From positions 1 to 64,000 of IMG/VR virus record IMGVR_UViG_3300020179_000028: a DNA stretch of 64,000 nucleotides; one strand, 5' to 3'. This DNA comes from a virus. Numbering within the stretch: position 1 is the stretch's first letter; every line of letters starts with the position of its first letter. The position numbers were made by a program, and so were the translations under genes. Shown piece after piece: positions 13,466-59,645 of the stretch. The notes beneath the pieces are model-generated. The model saw nothing but the letters and a program-made list of their open reading frames with translations. It did not search any database and had not been told where the DNA came from.

Positions 13466-14908
13466 TTAGTTATATTTAGTTAAATATTCCTGTATCTCTA
13501 CTCCTTTAAACTCTTTTGCTTCTTTATACAGTCTATCATATGCGCTCTTTGTTTGCAAATTAGAAACTGCATGTGATTTATTAAATTGTCCTGTGCCCAC
13601 ATAAGTGGTCATCCAAGACTGGTAGCCAAATGTTTTATTATTATTTTTTATAACAAACTCAGAAATATATGAGTTGTCTAATTCATCTAAAACATTTTTA
13701 GCATAATCTGGAATAATATTTTTATTTTTAAAATTTTTCCAGAAATCTGTATCGTCCCTGTCGGTTAAATAATGAATGTATATAAAACCTAAAATTTCTT
13801 TATTTTTTTCTAGTACTTTATTATTATATTTTTCTATTACAGAATAATCTTTTTCTGATATAAATTTATGCATAAAGTCGTCAGAAATAAATAGATTCAT
13901 CATATAGATTGTTAACATAATTGACGTTCCATGCAATGGTTCAAAAAATCCAGATGCTAAACCAACAGATAAACAATTTTTAGCCCAGGGTTGCTTATAG
14001 TATCCTGGTTTAAAATCAAAATGATTTACTATTTTAACATCTTCTTTTTTAAATAATTCATATATTTCTTGCTCTGCTTGTTCTTTGTTTATATATGATG
14101 GATCATAAACATAGCCACATCCATATCTATGCTTAAGCGGTGTTTTCCAAACCCATCCGTATTTCATTGCAATTATTTCTGTACATAAAGAATAATCTTC
14201 ATCTTGTGGCAAAAAGAATGCTAGTGCTTTTGTGCATGGCAAACTTTCAGATGTGTCAACCCACTCGGATTGTAAGTGTTTTCCAATAATTAGATTATTA
14301 AACCCTGTTGCATCAATGACAAAATCACAATCATAAAAACCTTTTTCTGTGTGAACTACACTAATTGCACCCTCAAATTCTCCAAAGTGTGTAAACACAT
14401 CGTCAACAACTTTAATTCCTCTAAGTTCAGAATGTTTTCTAAAAAACTCAGCAAGTTTAATTGCATCAAGATGCCACCCAGCATAGGGCCAGGTAAGTGT
14501 ATTTGACATTGTTGCCGACAAACCTTTATTTATATCATCAAGATTTTTATCATTTGACATTAATTCTATAGACGCAAGCCTAAACTGCTCTAATTCAAAA
14601 TCTCTATTTTCACTGCTATCTGATATATAATTTGTTAATGGATGAAAGTATGATTTGTTTTTTTTAGACCATCCAATAAATCGTATACCATTTTTTAATG
14701 TTGCACCAGTATGTTCAATAAACTCATTTAATGGCAAATCTAACTCATCAAAAATATACCTAAAATTAGAAGTTGTTCCTTCTCCAGCACCAAGCACACC
14801 TATTTTAGAACTATCAATTATTGTAATATCAGAGTCAGTATATTTATGCTTAATAGTAAGTGCTGCCAAGTATCCAGCAGTACCGCCACCAATAACAACT
14901 ATCTTCAT
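13466..14908 (-). CDS. Flavin-dependent tryptophan-halogenase-like protein
   Basis: A 480-residue FAD enzyme of the tryptophan halogenase fold. It has the dinucleotide motif GGGTAG (7-12), the segment EHTGATLKNGIRFIGW with K72 aligning to the halogenase active-site Lys (PrnA K79), and WVWKTPL (252-258) as a variant of the WxWxIP signature. At 321-330, FFEPLHGTSI aligns with the EPLES region; the catalytic Glu (PrnA E346) appears as His 326. It may halogenate a small or polymeric substrate like the cyanophage enzyme VirX1, or have shifted to another oxidation. Its stop abuts the ssb promoter, and its start overlaps a small membrane protein gene. Confidence 0.82.
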   Translation of the reverse strand: MKIVVIGGGTAGYLAALTIKHKYTDSDITIIDSSKIGVLGAGEGTTSNFRYIFDELDLPLNEFIEHTGATLKNGIRFIGWSKKNKSYFHPLTNYISDSSENRDFELEQFRLASIELMSNDKNLDDINKGLSATMSNTLTWPYAGWHLDAIKLAEFFRKHSELRGIKVVDDVFTHFGEFEGAISVVHTEKGFYDCDFVIDATGFNNLIIGKHLQSEWVDTSESLPCTKALAFFLPQDEDYSLCTEIIAMKYGWVWKTPLKHRYGCGYVYDPSYINKEQAEQEIYELFKKEDVKIVNHFDFKPGYYKQPWAKNCLSVGLASGFFEPLHGTSIMLTIYMMNLFISDDFMHKFISEKDYSVIEKYNNKVLEKNKEILGFIYIHYLTDRDDTDFWKNFKNKNIIPDYAKNVLDELDNSYISEFVIKNNNKTFGYQSWMTTYVGTGQFNKSHAVSNLQTKSAYDRLYKEAKEFKGVEIQEYLTKYN

Positions 14909-26029: not shown

Positions 26030-26703
26030 TATACTTCTTCCAATGTAACATCTATATTCCACAAATCAAAATTAGTTCCGCCTCTTTTAACTACAGAATA
26101 ACTAAAGTCTGTAAAATACATTTGTATTAATTGACTGTATTGAGGCAAGTGTGCATATGAATTATTATCAATGAGTCCATTGTCATTTTTAAAGTTTTTA
26201 TAATTATCATATGATAAATAAACCCAAAAGGGGCCCTGATGACTTTCGTACCAGTCTAAAATTTCTACTCCACCAGCGCCTCCGTCAGTTGTAAATTCTA
26301 AATTATTATCATTAATATGTGGAGATTTTCCAGTTGTGAGATTAAATTCTGGTGTTTGAAAATAAGATCTAGAAGGAAGCATTTCCCATGATGTGGTTAT
26401 TTGTAGTTTATCCGCTATATGATAAGACCTCATTCTACCATTTATCATCCTTTCACGTTTTTCAATTCTGGTAGGTTTAAAATTAATTTCTCCTCTATTG
26501 TCATCAGATAAAATTAAAAATTGGTCATACAAGTCTGTATTTGTTTCACTACCCACATCTTGTCCAATTTCCAAACCATTAGGGACATATATTTTATTTC
26601 CTCCAGGACTTGACTCTACAAGAGTTCCAGAATTTTCAGACCACAACATTCCTTGAGGCCTTTGATATCTTCTTCTACCAGTTATATAACTTGCTGTAGC
26701 CAT
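26029..26703 (-). CDS. Distal tail protein-like minor tail protein (224 aa)
   Basis: It lies directly after the tape measure gene, the usual place of the distal tail (Dit) protein that starts the tail tip. The sequence is mainly beta (LQITTSWEMLPSRSYF; GPFWVYLSYDNYKNF; MYFTDFSYSVVKRGG), and the last segment is typical of Dit-like proteins. It is coupled by TAATG on both sides. Assignment is by position and fold impression only. Confidence 0.65.
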   Translation of the reverse strand: MATASYITGRRRYQRPQGMLWSENSGTLVESSPGGNKIYVPNGLEIGQDVGSETNTDLYDQFLILSDDNRGEINFKPTRIEKRERMINGRMRSYHIADKLQITTSWEMLPSRSYFQTPEFNLTTGKSPHINDNNLEFTTDGGAGGVEILDWYESHQGPFWVYLSYDNYKNFKNDNGLIDNNSYAHLPQYSQLIQMYFTDFSYSVVKRGGTNFDLWNIDVTLEEV

Positions 26704-29700
26704 TATCCTGCAACACTCCTAAGTCTCTTAGAATCTACCTGACGAATTTGAGTCATTACTGCTCTTGCAATTTCATCAGGATTTGCATCAGATCTTACAT
26801 TAACTGCAACACTATAATTATACACTGAAGAATCAGAAACATCTCCATTATTCATGGCTCTCATTTTATCAACACCATAATTTTGAACAGCATATCTACT
26901 CATAACAAATTCACCTGGTGTTAGCATTGAAGGAATTACATCAGTTCCTATTACTGACCCACCCACCGCATATCTCTTTATTAGTCCTCCAGATGCTTTT
27001 CCACTGGGCCAATTAGCAAACTGACTTGCAGCAATGGCATTGCCACCAAACTTCTTGATGTCTGCTGCAGCCTTTGCTTTTGCTGCTGCGTCTGCCTTCT
27101 TTTTAGCGTTGGCTGCTTTTACTTCTGCAGTAAATGCTGCTGCCGAAGCAGCCTTTTGTGCTGGGGTATTTGTTAATTCATCTAAATGGGCATAGGCGCC
27201 TCCACCCATTTTTTTAATATTTGCATTAATAATTTCTTTTGAAAATGCATTTGCTCGATCTTTCATATTGAATAAATCTTGTACATGTAATCCAGCAGTT
27301 TGTCCAGCATTCTTAGTAATGTTTGCTACTGTGACGGCGTTGGCGATTCTTGCTAGGTCTTGTCTGTGTAAATCAGCAACAGATCCACCACTATTAACAT
27401 CTTTAACTATTGTGACGTCATCTTTTGTTCCATTAGACTTTGTTGCATTTCCATCACCTGTTTTTGGTTTTGTATTTGAGTCTGGAATTACGGGATCTGG
27501 AATTACGGGATCTGGAACTACTTCTGGATCTGGAATTACGGGATCTGGAACTACTTCTGGATCTGGACCTGGACCTGGGCCTGGACCTGGACCTGGGCCT
27601 GAACCTCCTCCTTCATAAACAGTAATAATCTTATGAGTAGTTGTAATAATTTTTCCATCTAAAGAATTCCAATACTTAATAATATCTTCAACTACATCAA
27701 GGGCAGCCTGTATTGCCTGCATATATTCTGCACTAGAGGTTCTTGCAAGGTCAATTCTATTCTTAATTGCTTCCCATTCAAGTTTTGATTTTCCTAAAAC
27801 TGTTAAAGACTGTATTAGTTCTCTCTTGTTTGCTTCGGCAATACGAACACGTTCTTGTGCTGGCTCTAATTCTTTTTCTTCGATTTCGAATATTTCATTA
27901 CGTAATTTTTTAATTTGATCTTCAATTTGAGCACGAGTATATCCTTTATCATTTCTAACCTGTGCTAATTCATTTTCTTTTGCAGCCTCTAATAGTTTTT
28001 GTTGATCATTTAATGCCTGCTCTGCCTGATCTGCTCTTAAATCTTGCGCTGCCTTTGCTGCAGCAGAAATATCTCCTTGAGAAAGAGCATCAGCAATTGT
28101 TAATTGACCCTTTTGTTGCTTAGATATTCTTTCATTTATTTCACGAATTTCATCTAATGCCTTAAATTTGGCATCATATTTATCATTAATTTTTTGTTCT
28201 TGTTCTTCAATTCCTTTTAGACTTGCCTCCCAATCATCTATTTTATAATTTAATCCAGCAATTTTATCTTGTGCTTTTTCTATAATATCCTGATCTTTTA
28301 ATGTTGCAAATTGGAAATCTAGTTCTATTTTAGTTTCCATTACAGAGAATTTTTCCATTGCTTTGTCAAAGCCTTTTTGGAAAATAGATTCTTTAAACTC
28401 TATTGAATTAAGAACTTGATTTAATCTTGTTTTAAATTCTGCAAAAAGTTTTGGATCATTAACAACAGAGTCCCATCTTGACATTGCATCTCTTAATGTA
28501 TCATCACTTAATATAGCATCTGCCTCAAGCCAACTCCAGTTTTGACTTTTTGCAGCCTTTGCTAAATTACTTCTTGCAGCATCTTCTTTTCTTTTGCTTT
28601 CAATATCTTGCTGAAGTGCTGTTGTTTGTTCAGCATTTTTAGATAATTTTTTAACCTGTTTTAATAATTTAATAAGTTTTTTTGCTGCCTCAGTATTACC
28701 GTCTGAAGCAATCATTGCAGCAAATGCTTTATCTGAAATTAGTTCTTGAGTGTCTGCATAACTTAAACCAGCATCTCTTAATATTTTATATGCATCTGCT
28801 TGATCTTGAAGTACTTGTTTTTGCTGCTTCATTTGAGACGAATAATCTCCAGCAACTATTCCATTTAATACCTCTTGAATTGTTTTAGCATCACGCTTTA
28901 ATCCAATGATGTTGCGTTTATTGTCAAATTTGAATAATGAATTTTTTCTATTTTCATATTCTTTTGGATCCATACCAACAATAAACTCTATGAGGTTACT
29001 CTTACCACCATACTTGGCAATATCCTGCTCAATACCGCTAAACATTTCTAGTCTCTTCTTACCGCCAAACAATTGATCTAATGTTTTCATAGAAGCAGTC
29101 CAGCCTTCTGTTACTTTAATTTGATTTTTACGGACATCTCTTAATTTTTTAACCAATTCATCCAAGGGAGATGTTTGCTTTTTGCCACCACCACCACTAC
29201 CTTTTGGAACTACGGATGTCGTATTATCTGTTGCTGTAACAGTTACACGCTGTGCATTCCACTGTGCATATTCTTGAAGTTGGGTTCCTGGTGGTGAGTT
29301 TGCCCATTGAGAACCTTCTGCTTTAAGCCAAGATTGAAGTGCTGGATCATCTGGAGATACAGTTGTTATAGTTTGAATCAATGTTTGTAAATATACTTTT
29401 TTTAATTCGTCAGTTTTGATACTATTAAAATAATCTAAATCATCATTTAGTATTTTTAACTGATCTGCATTTAAAACTTTACTTGCAACTACAAAATCTA
29501 TCTTACCTTTAAGTGCCTCAATTTGTTCTGTTTGTTGCATTAATCTTTCTGCGACTTTTGGATTCTTTAATAAAAAGTCAGTAATAATTGTTGTGTTTAA
29601 AACATTTCCAGTTTTAGCAACCATAGCGTAAAAACTTCTGAGTCTTTCTGCTTCTTCTGGATTTCCAGAACTTTCTATTTTTGCAATAAATCTAGTCTGA

Positions 29701-32700
29701 ACATCTTTTACTGGGTTGCCATCTTTATCAACAAACAATGACGCAGTAGACATAATTTGATTTCCAAATGCTCCACCAAATTTAGTTATAATGTTTAAGA
29801 CTTTTGTCATAGCCTCTTTGTTATCTCCGAAAGATTCTAAAAGATTTATCATTTGCATAGGATCTATTTCTCCAGATGCTAATTCCATTTTTAATAAATA
29901 TCTTTGCTCTGCAGTTATATTTTGGTTGTCATTAAGATCTTGTTTGGCTAATTTAGCAACATCTTCCATTACGGTACCTTTATATTTACCTGTTATGGCT
30001 TTATCTACTCCTCTATCAAGTGCATCTCTTGTTGCTCCCTCAGCACTAGAATATGATGCTGCAATATCTTGTAATAATTTTCCATTTTGTAAAAGTAAGT
30101 CTGCCCTATCTTTAATATGCTTATTTGTTAGTTCATCAACTTTTGCAGTATTTCCTGCTGCCCTAGCCTCTGCAATTCTTTTTTCATATGAAATGTCTAA
30201 AGAATCCATCATTTCTTGCTGCTGTTCCAATGCCATCTTTTGCATAGCAATTGATGCACCTGACGCTGCACCTATTCTTTCAGCACGATCTTTTCTTGAA
30301 AATAGATTTCCTGCTACTGCTCCAGTTATTGCGCCTACGCTAGCACCTATTGCTGTTCCTATTACTGGAACAACAGAACCTATAACTGCACCAGTTGCTG
30401 CGCCAGCAAGAGCACCTCCACCAGTTCCCATAGCACCGACCTTCATCATATCTTTGCCAGTCCAACCTCCAGCAGCCTTTGCTTTATCTCCAAATGACTG
30501 AACATTTTTTCTTGTTTCTTCCATTAATTTAACACGAATTTCAAGTGGATCTGTTAATAGATTTTCTCCATTAACACCAATTAACTCTATGAGTTTTGCA
30601 TTAACCTGAATTCCAAAACCGTAATCTCCAAGTTCTTTTCCAATATTTGCTGCTACGCTTCTTGCTTGTGCTGCACTCATAGCACCAGACGATACTGCTG
30701 TTGCAAGTTGATTTACCATTGTGTTTTGTGCACCTGCACGACCCATTCCTTCAATATTTTGTCCAGTTGCTTTTACTAAATCTTTTCCTTCTTTACTTGC
30801 AACATAAGATTCTCCAAACGTTGTTTTACCTGTTTGAATAGCAAATGGATTTACTGCATCCTTTCTGCGCCTATCCATTACTTCGCCAGCAGTTACTCCT
30901 CCAGCAAATTTTGCCAAACCTCTAATTGCATCTTGTCCAGATCCTGTAGCCTGTGCCAATTTCATAGCAGAATCTTGTGCCTTATCAAAAGCCATTCTAA
31001 GTCTTACGGCTGCTGCAATTACCAATCCTATACCAACAGCCAACAAACCTAACTTACTTTGTAATAATGGTAGAACCAAGGTCAATGCCATTAATGGCAA
31101 CATAATTTTTTGTGCCATATCTCCTATAGCACCTGGCATCATTGCTGCACCCATTGTTATTGCGGAAGCAGCCATCATTGCTCCCCCTGCACCCATACCA
31201 GTCTTTGGATTGTTCGGATCTGCTGGAGGTCTTCTAAATCCTCCAAAGAATCTTCCGCGACCCTTTCCTCCAGGGCCACCTCCTGATGCACCACCTGTTC
31301 CTCCTGCACCAGCAGCGACCATTCCAGTAACTTGTGACTGCCTTATCATTCTCTTGTCTGCTAAAGCGCTTAATCTTGCTTGTTTTTCTAATTGTCTTCT
31401 TAGTGCCTTTTGTGCTGGATCAATTGGACCAGCCCCATATAGCGCTGCCCTTGATGCTGCTGCCATCTGTGCCTGAGACATTGCTCCACTAGTTACGGCG
31501 GTTCCTAATTGTTGACCAGCAACTCTTGCATCATCCACATATTCTTTCATTCCAACAACTGCACCGACAGCAATATCAGCACCTATTTTTTTAGTAACTC
31601 TGGATGGAGAAGCAATTTTTGCTCTTTCCATCATTCCCTCTACCATGCTTTTTTCTGCAAAATCTACAAGGCTAAATCCTGTCTTCTTATAAAATGTAAA
31701 TCTATCTCCACCACGACGCATCTTCATTCCATTTACGTCTATAGCACCTTTGCTTCCTCCACCTGGAACCGATGGCAATCCTGCCATTCTTTGTGCTGCT
31801 TGAGAAATATTAACTCTTGCCTCTCCAGCAGTTACTGCTAATTGATCAAAGGCTCTAACTAATCTATTTTGTGCTCCCATTTGTCTACGGGCATATTCAT
31901 ATGCTTCTTTTACATGTTTATCGGTTACTCTAGTATTTGCGTCAAGACTTGTTAAATAATCTTTCATATGAGTATCTAAAATAGATAAATCTGCAGCAAC
32001 ATCTTGCATTTTCATGCCACCATTTTTTAATGCAATCTTCCATCTAGACAAACCTCTTTGATCCCAGTCTTGCATAAATTCACCCTTACCAACACCACGT
32101 CCTCCTGGCTTCATAAGGTTATTCATTGATACTTGTTGTCCGTTTACATTAGACATACCTGTTGTTATTCCAAGTTTTCCATAAAGATGAATTTTAAGTG
32201 TATTTGCAAATTTCATAGCAACTGCTTCTATGGCTTGCATGGCTCTTGCGCTAATTATTCCAGCAGGAAGGGCTTTTAATCTATTAACTAAGTCTAATGC
32301 ACCAACTGTTCTAGGAGTTCCAATGTGAGAAAAGTCTCCAGCACCCCTTGTTCCTCCAGCAAATCGAGACATAATTCCACCAGCAATCATATGTGCAATT
32401 GCTGGCTTGTTTGCTGGATCTTGTGCTGATTTAGCAGGGATTACTGCTTCACCTGGAGTAAGCATTGCAGGAACTGTGTCAGTACCAGTTGAAAAATAAA
32501 ATGGCTTTACTTTTTTAGTTCCTTTAGCAAAACCTTTTCTTCCTTTGCCAATTACAGGGCCACCGAAGCCTCTTTGTGCTAATATTGCTCTCTGATATGC
32601 TTGTGTTAATGCATTAAGCGCTGCAATCTCAGATGTAAATGTTTGTTGTAATTTTACATGTACCTGTTGTAATGATGCTGCCACTGCAGTCGCCTGTGCT

Positions 32701-34511
32701 TGTTCAGCAGTTAAATATTGTGTTTGATTTCCTAATGTAGTTGAAGACTGTCCAGCCCTATTAAACACAGACTTCATATTTACAAATAATTTAATAATAT
32801 TAGCCAAACCATTTGCTAACAAACCAAAGGTCATGAGAAATACTGGACCTATTCCACCTAAAAGAGTAGTTAAAATAACAATAAACTTTTTTGCACCATC
32901 TCCCAAATTATTAAATTTATCTAATATCTTACTAACAAATTCTACAATTGGAGTTATTGCTTTTAAAAATTGTTCTCCAACTGGTGCAAGAGTTACCTTT
33001 AAATCTTCTACTGTTTTCTTAAATCTATAAGTTGTAGATTCTTCAACTCTTGACAATTCTCGTTCAGACAATATAGCAAGTTCTTCTGTTGTTGCTTTTG
33101 TTAATGTTAAAACACGGCTTGCCTGATTTCCTTCAGCAATTACATTTTGGAATAAAGTAGATAGACGAGAAAATTGAAACTTTCCAAATAGTTGCTCTAT
33201 TGCACGTGCACGATTAAGAGGGTCTAAGGTATTTAATGCATTTGCAAAGTCAACCACAACACCTTTAACATTTCCTTTATTTGCTTCAACTATTCCATTT
33301 ATATTTATTCCCATTGCTCCAAGCATTTTGCTTGCTTTTTCTGTAGGATTAATTAATGATGCTAAACCTGACTTTAGTGCGTTTGCACCCTCTGAGGCAT
33401 TAATCCCACCTTCTTTCATAGCAGTTAAAAAGAATGCCAAATCTTCAACATCTCCGCCTAATTGCTGCACTACTGGACCAGCCTTTGGAATTGCTATAGT
33501 TAAGTCTTCAATAGATACAACAGTTTGGTTTTCTACTGCGTTTAAAAAGTTAATTTTTTTAGCAAGATCTTCAGACGCTAACCCGAAAGCATTTGTTAAT
33601 GATATTGTGGTCTCTAATGCCTGTTCTTGTTCTACTCCACCAAGTACTGCAAGTCTTGTTGCTTCATTTACTTGAGCAATAAGGTCTGCCCCCATCTTAC
33701 CGCTTGCTGCTGCTGTTGCTGCCATCTCCATAGTTTTTTCAACGGCAACACCGTATTTTGTAAATTCTTTAGCAAGTAATTGAACTTCTTTAAGCATCCT
33801 ATCTGTTTCTTCACCAGTAGTAAACATTTCACCATAAACACGCTTAAACCTAATTGCTTGTTCTTCTAATTTCATAAATGTTTTTGCTGCTACAGTTCCA
33901 AGATAGGCTAGTGGTATTGTAAAACCAACCATCAACTGACGACCAGACCACTGAGTATTCTTACCAAAGTTAAGCATATTTGTAGCGCCCTGCCTTAATA
34001 GTTGATTAAGAAGCGCTTGTCTTTGTGCAGCAATTGCGGTTTGTGTTCCAAGATTTTTCATGTCCAAAGATAGTGGTCTAACAGCAATAGACTTCATTGC
34101 ACCGTTTGCATCACGGCCCATCTTTATATATTGTGTTTGTAGATCTTTTACTCGTTCTCTTGCTACTTTGTTGATAGTGTCAAATTCTGATCTAAAAAAT
34201 CTTCCAAATGTTTTTGTTGAACCCATTCCATAGCGGTAATACTCCCGCATAGATAATTTATTTCTCTCTAATGCATTTGTAAAAGATTCTGTAGTTGTTC
34301 TAACTGTCCGCATAGATGCAGACCATTTGCCTGTAGCATTAAGAGAATTAATTAAATTTTGTTGCATGTTGGCGGAGACGGCTGCTGCTGCAGCACCACT
34401 CTTCGCCATTGATGTATGGAAGGCTGATATTTGTTTTTGTAACGCTTTTATGCTGGCTAATGCTTGAGACGTATCTATATTTACATGAATATTAGATTGA
34501 ACATCAGCCAT
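26703..34511 (-). CDS. Tail tape measure protein
   Basis: At 2602 residues it is the largest gene in the window and sets tail length; at about 0.15 nm per residue the tail would be near 0.4 micrometre. The TP901-type core is at about 230-420 (GEETDRMLKEVQLLAKEFTKYG; AATAAASGKMGADLI). Hydrophobic stretches follow at about 540-580 and 1110-1180. Long coiled coils fill 1900-2280. A Pro-rich PDPVIPDPEVV and GPGPGP linker lies near 2310-2350. The motif GTD-V-P-MLTPGE-V occurs twice, near 660 and 2545. No lysozyme or peptidase domain was recognised. Confidence 0.93.
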   Translation of the reverse strand: MADVQSNIHVNIDTSQALASIKALQKQISAFHTSMAKSGAAAAAVSANMQQNLINSLNATGKWSASMRTVRTTTESFTNALERNKLSMREYYRYGMGSTKTFGRFFRSEFDTINKVARERVKDLQTQYIKMGRDANGAMKSIAVRPLSLDMKNLGTQTAIAAQRQALLNQLLRQGATNMLNFGKNTQWSGRQLMVGFTIPLAYLGTVAAKTFMKLEEQAIRFKRVYGEMFTTGEETDRMLKEVQLLAKEFTKYGVAVEKTMEMAATAAASGKMGADLIAQVNEATRLAVLGGVEQEQALETTISLTNAFGLASEDLAKKINFLNAVENQTVVSIEDLTIAIPKAGPVVQQLGGDVEDLAFFLTAMKEGGINASEGANALKSGLASLINPTEKASKMLGAMGININGIVEANKGNVKGVVVDFANALNTLDPLNRARAIEQLFGKFQFSRLSTLFQNVIAEGNQASRVLTLTKATTEELAILSERELSRVEESTTYRFKKTVEDLKVTLAPVGEQFLKAITPIVEFVSKILDKFNNLGDGAKKFIVILTTLLGGIGPVFLMTFGLLANGLANIIKLFVNMKSVFNRAGQSSTTLGNQTQYLTAEQAQATAVAASLQQVHVKLQQTFTSEIAALNALTQAYQRAILAQRGFGGPVIGKGRKGFAKGTKKVKPFYFSTGTDTVPAMLTPGEAVIPAKSAQDPANKPAIAHMIAGGIMSRFAGGTRGAGDFSHIGTPRTVGALDLVNRLKALPAGIISARAMQAIEAVAMKFANTLKIHLYGKLGITTGMSNVNGQQVSMNNLMKPGGRGVGKGEFMQDWDQRGLSRWKIALKNGGMKMQDVAADLSILDTHMKDYLTSLDANTRVTDKHVKEAYEYARRQMGAQNRLVRAFDQLAVTAGEARVNISQAAQRMAGLPSVPGGGSKGAIDVNGMKMRRGGDRFTFYKKTGFSLVDFAEKSMVEGMMERAKIASPSRVTKKIGADIAVGAVVGMKEYVDDARVAGQQLGTAVTSGAMSQAQMAAASRAALYGAGPIDPAQKALRRQLEKQARLSALADKRMIRQSQVTGMVAAGAGGTGGASGGGPGGKGRGRFFGGFRRPPADPNNPKTGMGAGGAMMAASAITMGAAMMPGAIGDMAQKIMLPLMALTLVLPLLQSKLGLLAVGIGLVIAAAVRLRMAFDKAQDSAMKLAQATGSGQDAIRGLAKFAGGVTAGEVMDRRRKDAVNPFAIQTGKTTFGESYVASKEGKDLVKATGQNIEGMGRAGAQNTMVNQLATAVSSGAMSAAQARSVAANIGKELGDYGFGIQVNAKLIELIGVNGENLLTDPLEIRVKLMEETRKNVQSFGDKAKAAGGWTGKDMMKVGAMGTGGGALAGAATGAVIGSVVPVIGTAIGASVGAITGAVAGNLFSRKDRAERIGAASGASIAMQKMALEQQQEMMDSLDISYEKRIAEARAAGNTAKVDELTNKHIKDRADLLLQNGKLLQDIAASYSSAEGATRDALDRGVDKAITGKYKGTVMEDVAKLAKQDLNDNQNITAEQRYLLKMELASGEIDPMQMINLLESFGDNKEAMTKVLNIITKFGGAFGNQIMSTASLFVDKDGNPVKDVQTRFIAKIESSGNPEEAERLRSFYAMVAKTGNVLNTTIITDFLLKNPKVAERLMQQTEQIEALKGKIDFVVASKVLNADQLKILNDDLDYFNSIKTDELKKVYLQTLIQTITTVSPDDPALQSWLKAEGSQWANSPPGTQLQEYAQWNAQRVTVTATDNTTSVVPKGSGGGGKKQTSPLDELVKKLRDVRKNQIKVTEGWTASMKTLDQLFGGKKRLEMFSGIEQDIAKYGGKSNLIEFIVGMDPKEYENRKNSLFKFDNKRNIIGLKRDAKTIQEVLNGIVAGDYSSQMKQQKQVLQDQADAYKILRDAGLSYADTQELISDKAFAAMIASDGNTEAAKKLIKLLKQVKKLSKNAEQTTALQQDIESKRKEDAARSNLAKAAKSQNWSWLEADAILSDDTLRDAMSRWDSVVNDPKLFAEFKTRLNQVLNSIEFKESIFQKGFDKAMEKFSVMETKIELDFQFATLKDQDIIEKAQDKIAGLNYKIDDWEASLKGIEEQEQKINDKYDAKFKALDEIREINERISKQQKGQLTIADALSQGDISAAAKAAQDLRADQAEQALNDQQKLLEAAKENELAQVRNDKGYTRAQIEDQIKKLRNEIFEIEEKELEPAQERVRIAEANKRELIQSLTVLGKSKLEWEAIKNRIDLARTSSAEYMQAIQAALDVVEDIIKYWNSLDGKIITTTHKIITVYEGGGSGPGPGPGPGPGPDPEVVPDPVIPDPEVVPDPVIPDPVIPDSNTKPKTGDGNATKSNGTKDDVTIVKDVNSGGSVADLHRQDLARIANAVTVANITKNAGQTAGLHVQDLFNMKDRANAFSKEIINANIKKMGGGAYAHLDELTNTPAQKAASAAAFTAEVKAANAKKKADAAAKAKAAADIKKFGGNAIAASQFANWPSGKASGGLIKRYAVGGSVIGTDVIPSMLTPGEFVMSRYAVQNYGVDKMRAMNNGDVSDSSVYNYSVAVNVRSDANPDEIARAVMTQIRQVDSKRLRSVAG
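27480..27600 (-). repeat. Pro-rich and Gly-Pro tandem repeat inside the tape measure gene
   Basis: A 15-base unit (GGATCTGGAATTACG on the plus strand) recurs in exact and variant copies, then a 6-base GGACCT-type repeat. In protein this gives PDP(V/E)(I/V) units and a GPGP run, probably a flexible linker between the coiled coil and the C-terminal domain. Such tracts can vary in copy number by slippage. Confidence 0.75.
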
Positions 34512-34537: not shown

Positions 34538-34864
34538 TTATACGTTTGCAAGACCGCTTATTAGCGAAGCATCTGTTAATTTGATTCCAGAAGCCTCTTC
34601 TACGATCTTGTAAACGGTTGGAAGATCAAAGTTCTCCTCAAGAGCAGTTAAATCTTCCGCCAACTCTGGCTTATATTGCTGCATAGCAATTGCTACACAT
34701 TCCATAAGCAGAGTCATTGACTTTTCATTATCATCAGCCACTGCTGCGATACCCTCAAACTTCTTCATAAATGGACGAAGCAGAGAGATCTTAAGTGGTC
34801 TTACTTTGATTTTTGTGCCGTCAATTAGTACGATTTCTTTTTGTTCGTGCACGGTTGTAGCCAT
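34538..34864 (-). CDS. Tail assembly chaperone, short form (108 aa)
   Basis: This small acidic protein lies just before the tape measure gene, the normal place of tail assembly chaperones. Its N-terminal 95 residues are clearly homologous to the first 95 of the next gene upstream (34916-35599): shared LIDGT, PLKI, R-FMK-FE, MQQY-P and the YKI...GIK ending. It lacks the extra C-terminal domain. It has its own AAGGAGG site and a TATAAT box upstream. Confidence 0.78.
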   Translation of the reverse strand: MATTVHEQKEIVLIDGTKIKVRPLKISLLRPFMKKFEGIAAVADDNEKSMTLLMECVAIAMQQYKPELAEDLTALEENFDLPTVYKIVEEASGIKLTDASLISGLANV

Positions 34865-34915
34865 TAATTCCTCCTTATAAGGTTGAATTAATTATACCAT
34901 AAGGCCATTTTATTT

Positions 34916-35599
34916 TTAATCAGAAATTTCTTCATAATCTAGTCCCATGCCTATTCCAAAACCAGCCTTTTGAGCATTAATCCCTTGTAATGAAACAATA
35001 TCGTTTGAGTTTGTGGCTTTACCACGACTAAAGACTCTAGCCTTCATATCTTCCCAGGCATTTGATTTCTTAGTGTTTTTATCTAAATCTACCCCCTGAA
35101 TTGCTGCATAAAACTTTTTATCTGCATAATCTATTTCTCGTTTAATATTTAAGGTGGCAGTTAATTCTGGCATTGACATTGAGGTTTCTAATTCCTCGTA
35201 GTCCTTCCATATTCCAAGAAGAAATACTTCTGATTCTAGTTTAACTATGTCTAATTTTTCCCATGAAGATCCGCTATCCACTGCCTGATCTTTTACTTTT
35301 TCTTTTGAGTCTTTGTCTATTTTAATACCAGCAGCAATATCTAATATCTTGTATATTGTTGCTAAATCTATGCTGTCTTCTAACTGTTCAATTGTTTTTA
35401 TGGCTGGATGATATTGCTGCATTGTAATTAAAGCACACTTTGCCAATTCTCCTATTGCCTGATCGTCACCTTTAGCGTTTCCAACATTTTCAAACTGTTT
35501 CATAAATTGACGAAGATATTTTATTTTTAATGGAGTTATGTATATTGATGTGCCATCAATTAAATTAATATAATCGCTGTCATATATTTCTGTAGCCAT
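34916..35599 (-). CDS. Tail assembly chaperone, long fused form (227 aa)
   Basis: A paralogue of the 108-residue chaperone with an added C-terminal domain of about 115 residues (from KLDIVKLESEVFLLGIWKDYEEL). Its size and two-part layout resemble a lambda G-T fusion product, but here the whole protein is in one frame, so no -1 slip is needed. There is no Shine-Dalgarno site: a TATAAT box ends 6 bases before the ATG, directly after a terminator, implying a leaderless transcript. Confidence 0.76.
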   Translation of the reverse strand: MATEIYDSDYINLIDGTSIYITPLKIKYLRQFMKQFENVGNAKGDDQAIGELAKCALITMQQYHPAIKTIEQLEDSIDLATIYKILDIAAGIKIDKDSKEKVKDQAVDSGSSWEKLDIVKLESEVFLLGIWKDYEELETSMSMPELTATLNIKREIDYADKKFYAAIQGVDLDKNTKKSNAWEDMKARVFSRGKATNSNDIVSLQGINAQKAGFGIGMGLDYEEISD

Positions 35600-35605
35600 C
35601 TATTT

Positions 35606-35611
35606 ATTATA
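35606..35611 (-). promoter_or_regulatory. -10 box for leaderless chaperone transcript
   Basis: TATAAT on the minus strand is 6 bases before the ATG at 35599, and no ribosome site is present. It follows the terminator at 35617-35654, so the region would stop the major tail transcript and restart at lower level. The -35 region is inside the hairpin and does not match consensus well. Confidence 0.5.
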
Positions 35612-35616
35612 CCAAA

Positions 35617-35654
35617 CAGAAAAGCCCAGACTTTCAAGGGTCGTGGGCTTTCTG
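35617..35654 (-). terminator. Rho-independent terminator after major tail protein
   Basis: On the minus strand the arms CAGAAAGCCCA and TGGGCTTTTCTG pair, extended by a GAC/GTC pair around an 8-base loop, with a short T-rich stretch after it. It lies 15 bases beyond the major tail gene stop. The stem is long and GC-rich for this genome, so it should separate the high-level tail tube transcript from the genes below. Confidence 0.75.
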
Positions 35655-35669
35655 TATTATTAAGTTGTA

Positions 35670-36293
35670 TTATGGTGTTACAGTGCGATCAATGATCTTA
35701 CCGTATGAGCCTGATGCGTCATCTGGAAGAAGACGGAATGAAACTTCAAACATTGTAGCCTCATCACGTTTTGCTGACACTGTTACATTTTCAATTGAAA
35801 GTGCACGGTATGCAACATAAATTCTTTCCTTGTTGGAAGATGCATCACAATCACCAGTTCCTGGACCGACAGCAACTAAACCACGCTCTACTGGGCATTC
35901 GCCAAGATTACCTGATTTGATGTTTAATGTCTGCCCGCTGGAAGTATCCTTGTCACCTGTAAGATCCGATGCGGATTCTGCAACTGCAACAAGAAGGTTT
36001 TCCAATGTGGATTCAGCAAAAGTAGTGTTTAGGTTTACTTGCATGCCTTGTTTAAACAACTTAGCAACGTCAAGAACCTGATCAACTTGAACCTCACCGA
36101 AATCTGGCTGGAATTGTAATTCCAAACCATTCATAGTATATCCGATTGAACGGAAATCGTTATCGGCGTCCATTGTTGCGGAATACTTTGTTCCAGAGAC
36201 GGGAGATGGGTTTCCACCTACTGCCAAAGGTTCCTCGGCAATCCATAACTGGGCTGCACCAACGATAATGTTATTACTATTACCTAGAGCCAT
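35670..36293 (-). CDS. Major tail tube protein
   Basis: A 207-residue beta-rich protein (GAAQLWIAEEPL near the start; FRSIGYTMNGLELQFQPDFGEVQVDQ; ENVTVSAKRDEATMFEVSFRLL at the end), matching the layout of siphovirus tail tube subunits. It comes before the chaperones and tape measure, as expected. It has a GAGGTG ribosome site and a strong terminator after it, both in keeping with very high expression. Confidence 0.85.
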   Translation of the reverse strand: MALGNSNNIIVGAAQLWIAEEPLAVGGNPSPVSGTKYSATMDADNDFRSIGYTMNGLELQFQPDFGEVQVDQVLDVAKLFKQGMQVNLNTTFAESTLENLLVAVAESASDLTGDKDTSSGQTLNIKSGNLGECPVERGLVAVGPGTGDCDASSNKERIYVAYRALSIENVTVSAKRDEATMFEVSFRLLPDDASGSYGKIIDRTVTP

Positions 36294-53070: not shown

Positions 53071-55128
53071 TTATGCTGATAAGTCGCCGAAAACTAACCA
53101 TCCGCTTGAGGTTTTCATTGCTGTTGCAACTGAGTTGGTTGTTCTCAACTTTAAGCCTGGAGTTCCTACAACGCTGTTGGTTGAAGCAAACTGTGCTCCA
53201 GTACCAGAAGCCTGATAGAAGTCAATGGACTGTCCAGTTGAGTAGCCTGTTGCAGGAAGTGTTATTGTCACTGCTCCTGCTAAAGGAACAAACTTATCCT
53301 GCTCTCCTGCTGAAAGAGTTGCAGAAGATGTGAGTGCTGCTGCAAATGTTGTAATCGAAGGTACGCCAGCCTTTGCTTGTGTACCGTCAGAAAATACAAT
53401 ACCTGCTGCTGGTAGAGTTACTGTACCAGTAAATGTTGGAGAAGCCGAAGGAGCCTTAAGATCTACTTCTGTCTTTCCTGCGATATTATCGTATGTAGAT
53501 CCATCATTTGTAAACTGCCAAACATCGCTGGATTCATTCCATCTTATTTGAACATCATTAGAATCTCCACGCTTAATCTTTATTCCTGCATTTTCCGATG
53601 GAACACCACTAGTAAAGTTGCTGTTTAGATCGATAATATTATCAGCCAAAGAAATTGTTTCGCTGTTTACAGTTGTAGTTGTTCCGCTTACTGTTAGATT
53701 TCCACCAACAACAAGGTTTCCAGTTACTTCTGCGTTATCAGCAATATTTACTTTTCCTGAACCGTTTCCAGTTAAAGATAGGTCTGTATTTGCTGACTTG
53801 CTTGAAATTGCATCTGCATTAATTGCATTACCGAATACAATTGCATTTCCATCGCTGCTGGTTATATTGGATCCTCCCTCAATAACCATTGCTGATTTAA
53901 TCTGAATGTTACCAGTTCCTGTTGCATCTAGTTCAACATTACCGCTACCGCTTGTACGTAATGATAGGTTTTCATTAGCATCTGCACGAACAACAATGTT
54001 GCCAGACTCGTCGTGAAGAACCTTTTGACCATTAACATATAGTGATCCTGGACCAACATAGAGGTCTTTCCACATTTTTGTTGGAGATCCAAGGTCGTAC
54101 GTGTTATCTGTAGATGGAACAATACTTCCACCTGCTGTTACTGTTGGAAGGACTACTGTTCCAGTAAATGTTGGTGATGCTAGTGGGGCCTTAAGATCCA
54201 ATGCTGTCTGTGTTGCAGTAGATACTGGCTTATTGGCATCAGAGGTATTATTAACATTTTCAAGTCCAAGTGTGGCTGGTGTTACCGCAGCAACTTCTGA
54301 CTTAAGTGCTAAAAGTGCTGTATCTGCGATACCATGAACATTTGTTGTTGTAGAGTTGTGATTAGTTAATGCTGTAGTTGCTGATGAAAGTGCAGCCTCA
54401 GCCTTTGCCTGTGCACCGCTAATTGTTTCAAGAACAGTTGTATCTGCTATTCCGTGAACGCTAGTAGTATCTGAACTATGTGTGCCAATTTCTGATCCTA
54501 TTGCGTTATTTCTGTTTCCTACTTCTGTTGCAATAGCAGTATCAATTGCTTCACCTCTATTTGCTACTTCAGCAGCAATTGCATCGACTATTGCTTCATT
54601 TCTATCTGTTACTTCATCAGCAATTGCAGCAACGATTGCTTCATTTCTATCTGTTACTTCATCAGCAATTGCAGCAACGATTGCTGTATTTCTATCTGCT
54701 ACTTCTTGATCAATTGCAGTAACAATTGCTGCATTTCTATTGTCTACTTCTACTGAAATTGCATTGTTTACTGTAGAAGTCATATCTGCCGTATATACAA
54801 GATTTGCTGTATTACTAATTCCGTGTACGCTAGTTTGATCTGCATTATGATCGTCAATATATTGAGTTAATTCTGCATCTAATGCTACGCCTTGTGGAAT
54901 TAATGCTACATCAATCACGCCTTGTGCATTTAGTGTAACGATTCCTCCTACACCATCAAGACCATCTAAATTTTTAAAATAAGAGAGAACTGCCCAAGCC
55001 GAAGATCCGTTTCCAATTTTAAACTGGTTGGTATCGGTTTCAAATCCGATTTCTCCTGCTGCTAAAGTTGGGTTTGCTGCAGTCCATTGCGCTGCGGTTC
55101 CTCTTCGCTGTTGCATTCTTGTTGCCAT
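53071..55128 (-). CDS. Tail fibre protein with N-terminal virion-anchor domain (685 aa)
   Basis: The N-terminus (RRGTAAQWTAANPTLAAGEIGFETDTNQFKIGNG) is the known phage tail fibre motif repeated in many aquatic and actinobacterial phages. Residues 130-210 are a 16-residue repeat of the DEVTDRNEAIVAAIA type, helical. A long beta-rich shaft follows, with NTYDLGSPTKMWKDLYVGPGSLYVNG (about 340-365) typical of beta-helical fibres. The C-terminus (about 600-685) is a small beta domain. AAGGAG site before the ATG. Confidence 0.82.
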   Translation of the reverse strand: MATRMQQRRGTAAQWTAANPTLAAGEIGFETDTNQFKIGNGSSAWAVLSYFKNLDGLDGVGGIVTLNAQGVIDVALIPQGVALDAELTQYIDDHNADQTSVHGISNTANLVYTADMTSTVNNAISVEVDNRNAAIVTAIDQEVADRNTAIVAAIADEVTDRNEAIVAAIADEVTDRNEAIVDAIAAEVANRGEAIDTAIATEVGNRNNAIGSEIGTHSSDTTSVHGIADTTVLETISGAQAKAEAALSSATTALTNHNSTTTNVHGIADTALLALKSEVAAVTPATLGLENVNNTSDANKPVSTATQTALDLKAPLASPTFTGTVVLPTVTAGGSIVPSTDNTYDLGSPTKMWKDLYVGPGSLYVNGQKVLHDESGNIVVRADANENLSLRTSGSGNVELDATGTGNIQIKSAMVIEGGSNITSSDGNAIVFGNAINADAISSKSANTDLSLTGNGSGKVNIADNAEVTGNLVVGGNLTVSGTTTTVNSETISLADNIIDLNSNFTSGVPSENAGIKIKRGDSNDVQIRWNESSDVWQFTNDGSTYDNIAGKTEVDLKAPSASPTFTGTVTLPAAGIVFSDGTQAKAGVPSITTFAAALTSSATLSAGEQDKFVPLAGAVTITLPATGYSTGQSIDFYQASGTGAQFASTNSVVGTPGLKLRTTNSVATAMKTSSGWLVFGDLSA
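54540..54735 (-). repeat. 48-base tandem repeat in tail fibre gene
   Basis: Units of 48 bases encode 16-residue helical repeats (EVTDRNEAIVAAIAD); two neighbouring copies are identical and the outer ones diverge. It probably forms a coiled-coil or helical shaft, and length can change by recombination. Confidence 0.75.
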
Positions 55129-57299: not shown

Positions 57300-57746
57300 T
57301 TACGCCTTAAGTCCAATTCGTGCAAAACGAACTGTGACTGGCTTAATCGCAGGATCTGGAGTAACCGTTAAGGATACTGTATTTCCAGCCCTGGAGACGC
57401 TAACGGTGCCAATATTCCCATCATTGTCTATTGTGCCATACTCAGAGACATTCACATTTGTGCCGTCTACCAAGATGGTCAACTCTGTTGCATAAAACTT
57501 GTTATCTCCCGCAGTTGTCTTTGCGATAGAAACAAGATACTTAATCATACGAAATTCTGTAGCATCAAAATTATCTATTACTGTTGGATTTTCAATGCCT
57601 GAAATTGTGTTTTCATTATTGCCCGATGACGCCAAGTCTGTTGAACGGGCTGAGGTTGAATCAATCAAGTCCTCATAGTCTTGCTGAGTGGGGCGATCCC
57701 CAGTCTCAAACTTTGTCTTTAAATTAGATATTGATATCTTGGCCAT
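57300..57746 (-). CDS. Fibre-associated virion protein sharing a domain with the neighbouring fibre (148 aa)
   Basis: The N-terminus (LKTKFETGDRPTQQDYEDLID) is a helical segment seen at the start of many phage fibre proteins. The C-terminal 80 residues (YLVSIAKTTAGDNKFYATELTILVDG...VSLTVTPDP) align well with the C-terminus of the 535-residue fibre, so they are paralogous terminal domains. It has a TATAAT box only 6 bases before the ATG; AAGGAG is present but 13 bases away, so leaderless start is likely. Confidence 0.72.
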   Translation of the reverse strand: MAKISISNLKTKFETGDRPTQQDYEDLIDSTSARSTDLASSGNNENTISGIENPTVIDNFDATEFRMIKYLVSIAKTTAGDNKFYATELTILVDGTNVNVSEYGTIDNDGNIGTVSVSRAGNTVSLTVTPDPAIKPVTVRFARIGLKA

Positions 57747-59081: not shown

Positions 59082-59645
59082 ATGATTAACTTTATGAATA
59101 ATAACAGGAACATCATTGGTACACTCAGCATATTGGCTATGTTTTTCGTTTGGTCAAGCGTGGCTAATGCTCTTGAAAACCGATTAAACGATAGTAAAAC
59201 TGTCGTGCTTGAAGAGACCATAGAGGCCACGGAAGTGGCCAAAATCGTTTCTAAGGCTAAAGAAGATCAGTTAGAAAAATATTCTAATGCTACATCTCTA
59301 TCTGATAAAGATCTAAAAAATCTATTGCAATTGGTAGGTTTTGAGGGTAAAAATCTTAAGGAGGCTTGGGCTATTGCTAAAAGAGAAAGTAATGGTCGAC
59401 CATTTGCATTCAACGGAAATACTAAAACTGGAGACAGTTCATATGGTATTTTTCAAATAAACATGCTTGGAATGCTTGGTCCAGATCGTCGTGACAAGTA
59501 TGATTTAGATCACAATGCTGACTTATTTAATCCAGTTGTAAATGCACAAATTACCTATCAAATGACAAAAGGTGGAGAAAACTGGAGTGCCTGGAAAGGA
59601 TTAACTCCAAGGGCTAAGGAATGGCTAACAAAATTCCCTAATTAA
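59082..59645 (+). CDS. Secreted lysozyme-like lytic transglycosylase
   Basis: A 187-residue peptidoglycan-cleaving enzyme and the only plus-strand gene seen. Residues 11-30 are a signal peptide or signal anchor (TLSILAMFFVWSSVANA), with possible cleavage after A30. The SLT/resuscitation-factor type lysozyme fold runs from about 90, with the catalytic Glu E102 (AIAKRESNG) and the GDSSYGIFQIN signature (about 117-127), ending ITYQMTKGG...WSAWKG. Sec export would allow holin-independent lysis. It has a strong ribosome site. Its last 8 bases overlap the end of the convergent glycosyltransferase gene. Confidence 0.87.
   Translation: MINFMNNNRNIIGTLSILAMFFVWSSVANALENRLNDSKTVVLEETIEATEVAKIVSKAKEDQLEKYSNATSLSDKDLKNLLQLVGFEGKNLKEAWAIAKRESNGRPFAFNGNTKTGDSSYGIFQINMLGMLGPDRRDKYDLDHNADLFNPVVNAQITYQMTKGGENWSAWKGLTPRAKEWLTKFPN

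Follow-up and report, generated by a model that had tools for sequence, protein, structure and literature searches.

Few features of long-tailed phages are more conserved than the -1 frameshift that produces the G and GT tail assembly chaperones; the frameshift is usually explained as a means of fixing the ratio of two forms that share one domain. The locus described here raises the question of how a phage obtains the two forms when each has its own gene. In lambda, for which the roles of G and GT and a short-to-long ratio of ~30:1 have been reviewed (PMC5009743), -1 frameshifting in one locus yields a short form and a long form with a C-terminal extension; the phage studied here likewise encodes a short form and a C-terminally extended long form, but it uses two genes. 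The window, that is, the whole stretch of 64,000 nucleotides that we analysed, comes from a 65-kb virus record, has a GC content of 35% and carries its late genes on the minus strand.

The long, GT-like chaperone gene (34916..35599, minus strand) starts with ATG and encodes 227 residues in one reading frame, laid out as an N domain (about residues 1–96), a linker and a T domain (about residues 113–227). It lies upstream of the short, G-like gene (34538..34864, minus strand; ATG start, 108 residues), which holds the N domain only, and 51 nt separate the two. Both genes sit between the tail tube gene and the tape measure gene, as the annotated chaperones of the Stanwilliamsviridae do. The upstream neighbor is the major tail (tube) protein gene (35670..36293, minus strand; phrog_2175, weak PF25681), at the position equivalent to that of the annotated major tail protein in the Stanwilliamsviridae, and the downstream neighbor is the tape measure protein gene (26703..34511, minus strand; 2602 residues, PF10145).

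A preliminary description of this DNA had proposed that the two genes are duplicates, one short and G-like and the other a fused G-T-like gene whose extra C-terminal domain is read in a single frame, and it had made homology of the N domains one of the points to be tested. That homology was found both by BLASTP, which aligned the two proteins with 42 of 96 residues identical (44%; 66% positive; E 2e-25), and by a profile comparison of long and short N domains, which gave 99.9% probability. Because two single-locus rows are common to both profile alignments, BLASTP of the pair is the cleaner test; its best local score was 197, and 1000 shuffles reached at most 54. The statement that the first 95 residues are shared holds as homology over ~96 residues but not as identity, which is 44% only. 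The N domains of both proteins matched phrog_10504 (E ~2e-21), and phrog_10474 matched only the long protein (residues 130–213, E 1e-14), in agreement with an extra domain in one gene.

We identify both genes as tail assembly chaperones from their synteny, from their homology to proteins annotated as such and from a comparison of folds. Stanwilliamsviridae G proteins match phrog_10504, and the window proteins resemble this family in the N domain, in a T domain carried by the long form only and in location. Predicted models of the two proteins, of moderate confidence (pLDDT 72–74), both begin with a beta hairpin followed by helices, and the best named viral matches in the fold comparison were tail assembly chaperones. 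Neither protein had a sequence or fold match among solved structures in the PDB.

If the long form were still made by recoding, a slippery site would be expected, as in a lambda-type locus, and the preliminary description had recommended a search for one. Neither window gene contains an X XXY YYZ heptamer in frame, and the long form is encoded in one frame. Among relatives, 87 of 124 long genes contain at least one heptamer in frame, most often TTTTTTA/G at about codon 124 (27/124). These counts would suit a long gene that still yields a short product by hidden recoding or internal termination, leaving the separate short gene to another role. We regard this as highly improbable, since the heptamers are scattered with none conserved, no synonymous constraint (a sign of hidden recoding) was detected at the long-gene linker or around codon 124, and, of the two copies, the short protein is more conserved and stands nearest to the G of single-locus phages. 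As a separate observation, the last codons of the short gene (34541–34570 in the window, minus strand), just before the tape measure start, showed a mild excess of codon identity with relatives (3.2 sd, few comparisons).

To place the two-gene arrangement among its relatives, we scanned IMG/VR, which returned hundreds of relatives, kept the best 80 per scan and analysed 255 fetched loci; several come from the same contigs, so that locus counts are not phage counts. A fused long gene with a separate short gene was present in 208 of the 255 loci (207 usable, 124 distinct sequences), and 39 had a single locus with T in the -1 frame; the remaining few were truncated or damaged or were pieces of the window fetched again. 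Among the 255 we found neither an intermediate, with a frameshifting long copy plus an extra short copy, nor a complete locus in which a fused long gene stood without a short one. Apparent exceptions were set aside: L140, whose long gene is split within its N domain, is situated at a contig edge, and the split resembles a sequence error; L105 and the fused-only cases are short or truncated loci.

Single-locus relatives, the other comparison that had been recommended, were found in the Stanwilliamsviridae, in Rhodococcus phages and in environmental contigs among L189–L225, all with a -1 G/T overlap and mostly with an in-frame heptamer (CCCAAAT, CCCAAAC, GGGAAAC or GGGAAAA). A tblastn search matched the N domain in 127 Streptomyces phages at one place per record, and wherever the record names a family it is Stanwilliamsviridae. 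Members of this family such as Patelgo, Mildred21 and Coruscant share with the window phage the N and T families (phrog_10504 and phrog_10474) and the order tail tube, chaperone, tape measure; they differ in having one locus with a -1 overlap and no second N-domain copy in any of the 127 records. In the Streptomyces phages that we examined, the N-domain match is followed by T in the -1 frame, and the chaperone is annotated as joined and frameshifted in Patelgo and Yaboi. Loccivirinae carry CCCAAAT in frame within the overlap, and two Rhodococcus phages carry GGGAAAA. Loci of the Boydwoodruffvirinae type (L162, L165, L166, L169–L171 and L174) keep the -1 overlap with no canonical heptamer and have CCCGGAA where Loccivirinae carry CCCAAAT.

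The T-domain tree placed every two-gene phage on one side of a branch (93/97). Nearest to them were two single-locus environmental loci, L190 and L217, each carrying an in-frame GGGAAAC, and beyond these came L193, L200 and L225 (CCCAAAC) and then the Stanwilliamsviridae. Because the two-gene phages form one clade nested within frameshifters, the two-gene state probably arose once, within a frameshifting lineage. In the N-domain tree the short copies grouped together (99/92), as did the long copies (94/90), and the G proteins of L190 and L217 joined the short copies (98/89), leaving the long copies outside. Read literally, this topology would put the duplication before the split of L190 and L217, but it is not firm: a tree constrained to unite long and short N domains is 9 log units worse and is not rejected (p-AU 0.20). 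The two trees thus support a duplication within a frameshifting lineage, the event that the preliminary description had supposed to make the frameshift unnecessary.

The outlying position of the long N domains, together with their identity of only 42–44% to the G of L190 and L217 as against 55–63% for the short copy, could also mean that the long gene was gained horizontally from a phage with an in-frame fused chaperone, with later loss of the T domain from the resident locus. We consider such a transfer unlikely. The T domains of two-gene phages adjoin those of L190 and L217, as local descent predicts, and none of the 255 loci was a candidate donor, with a fused long gene and no short one. 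Moreover, faster change of the long N domain can explain its place in the tree, where a single clade of long and short copies is in any case tolerated: across 123 genomes the mean identity was 0.59 for the long N domain and 0.77 for the short protein, with the short protein higher in 92% of pairs. On the simple reading of these sequences, the short copy would have retained the original role of G, and the long copy would have evolved more rapidly.

How the two genes might be expressed was examined from their start regions, for which the preliminary description had proposed separate initiation signals, leaderless for the long gene and AAGGAGG for the short one. Upstream of the long gene lies a predicted extended -10 element, TGGTATAAT (35606..35614, minus strand), whose hexamer ends 6 nt before the ATG, so that the mRNA is predicted to be leaderless; it is preceded by a conserved, terminator-like hairpin with a T run, recognized by pattern match, between the major tail protein gene and the long gene (35615..35654, minus strand). 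The short gene has its own predicted extended -10 element, also TGGTATAAT (34891..34899, minus strand), 26 nt before its ATG, and an AAGGAGG Shine-Dalgarno sequence (34870..34876, minus strand) that is kept in relatives. The strand, the hairpin and the -10 element of the short gene are additions to the preliminary description.

These signals were counted in the 122 distinct two-gene loci with enough upstream sequence. Before the long gene, TATAAT, TATACT or TACAAT ended exactly 6 nt from the ATG in 115 loci, a Shine-Dalgarno sequence was absent in all 122, and a GC-rich hairpin arm with a T run was present in all 122 (mean MFE -22.7). The short gene was preceded by TATAAT or TATACT, usually 24–28 nt before the ATG, and by AAGGAGG in 109 loci and GAGG or better in 122. 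As a control, none of 88 tape measure starts in the same loci had a -10 hexamer at 6 nt. A generic promoter scan of the region showed no excess over shuffles, so the promoter assignments draw their support from conservation and not from motif score; the hairpin before the long gene went unreported in a simple terminator scan. The proposed pair of signals is therefore conserved across the 122 loci, the leaderless state being a prediction. In the single-locus L217 and L190, a -10 box, a longer leader and a purine-rich stretch precede G, resembling the short copy.

Two other gene starts in the window, at 57746 and 58405 (minus strand), have TATAAT ending exactly 6 nt before the ATG and lack a Shine-Dalgarno sequence, making them candidate leaderless starts. 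Since they show the same 6-nt arrangement, this phage may commonly use leaderless starts.

The reading that we favor, with a probability of about 0.8, is that an ancestral frameshifting G/GT gene became two tandem genes, one making only the long form and the other only the short, with the ratio probably set by expression. The ancestral gene would have made its long form by -1 frameshifting; after duplication, the upstream copy would have kept the T domain fused in frame and the downstream copy would have lost it. By analogy with lambda, the short form would coat the tape measure protein, and the T domain of the rarer long form would bring in tail tube subunits. The long form would come from its own transcript, probably leaderless or with a short leader and lacking a Shine-Dalgarno sequence; the short form would come both from a promoter of its own, followed by a strong Shine-Dalgarno sequence, and from the long gene's transcript, read-through being proposed because no strong hairpin separates the genes (mean MFE -7.6). 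Signals of this kind would favor short over long, the same direction as in lambda. In TP901-1 a permanent GT fusion gives non-infectious particles (PMC4493119), which implies that once the gene is fused the short form must be supplied separately; a separate short gene was present in all complete two-gene loci.

In frameshift systems the two forms have an identical N domain, whereas identity between the long and short N domains across relatives has fallen to 32–50%. The pair could accordingly be paralogues with divergent roles instead of partners at a fixed ratio, for example with the long protein acting alone and the short one serving another tail protein. Synteny, conservation of the T domain and the co-occurrence of both genes in all complete loci make this improbable. 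Within duplication of a frameshifting gene as the preferred account, a more specific version is that frameshifting was replaced by a fixed initiation pair, leaderless for the rare long form and Shine-Dalgarno with its own promoter for the abundant short form, after which the long N domain, no longer tied to a coding sequence in common with the short form, specialised; we put this forward tentatively, at slightly less than even odds.

The two-gene solution as such is already known, because some T4-like phages are reported to have a short gene and a separate, in-frame fused long chaperone gene with no frameshift (Vladimirov, Gautam and Davidson 2022, cited in PMC10885494). That arrangement resembles the present one but belongs to a different protein family in different phages. 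The T4-like case of Vladimirov, Gautam and Davidson is said to be the pair gp26/gp51. In T4, gp26 and gp51 both match PF12322, are 20% identical and lie on opposite strands. Homology of the window family to gp26/gp51 was considered and rejected: there was no profile match, the hhalign probability was 0.8–1.6%, and PF12322 was weakly matched by only 2 of 48 relatives (best E 0.0079). The chaperone family thus differs, and judged by these profiles the two-gene event here is independent. In the open-access literature, the T4-like case was the only one that we found when looking for published two-gene siphophages, and an earlier report may exist elsewhere. What is new here is the siphophage-like lineage, its frameshifting sisters and the conserved contrast between leaderless and Shine-Dalgarno starts.

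The two-gene chaperone phages are a lake-water group. Because the relatives infect actinobacteria, the contigs are environmental and GC is low, a freshwater actinobacterial host is inferred; a scan of genome contigs from bacteria and archaea gave no relative. Elsewhere in the window, 13466–14908 (minus strand) encodes a 480-residue protein that strongly matches tryptophan halogenase (PF04820, E 2e-92), here phage-encoded, and 59082–59645 (plus strand) encodes a lysozyme-like SLT domain protein (PF18896) opposite in direction to its neighbors. A 685-residue protein (53071–55128, minus strand) matches PF18454 (E 1e-15), the N-terminal domain of the major tropism determinant. The determinant is familiar from diversity-generating retroelements; no reverse transcriptase was present among the window ORFs scanned.

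These phages represent a lineage that abandoned the G/GT frameshift; its frameshifting sisters are documented, which allows a comparison of cause and consequence. With the genes duplicated, one can test whether selection acts on the ratio or on the shared sequence: the N domains have drifted to ~41% identity, yet both genes persist. The conserved pair of leaderless and Shine-Dalgarno starts offers a test of whether the mode of initiation can set the stoichiometry of subunits. If the fixed initiation pair did replace frameshifting, the stoichiometry of structural assembly would depend on leaderless versus canonical initiation and therefore on the state of the host ribosomes.
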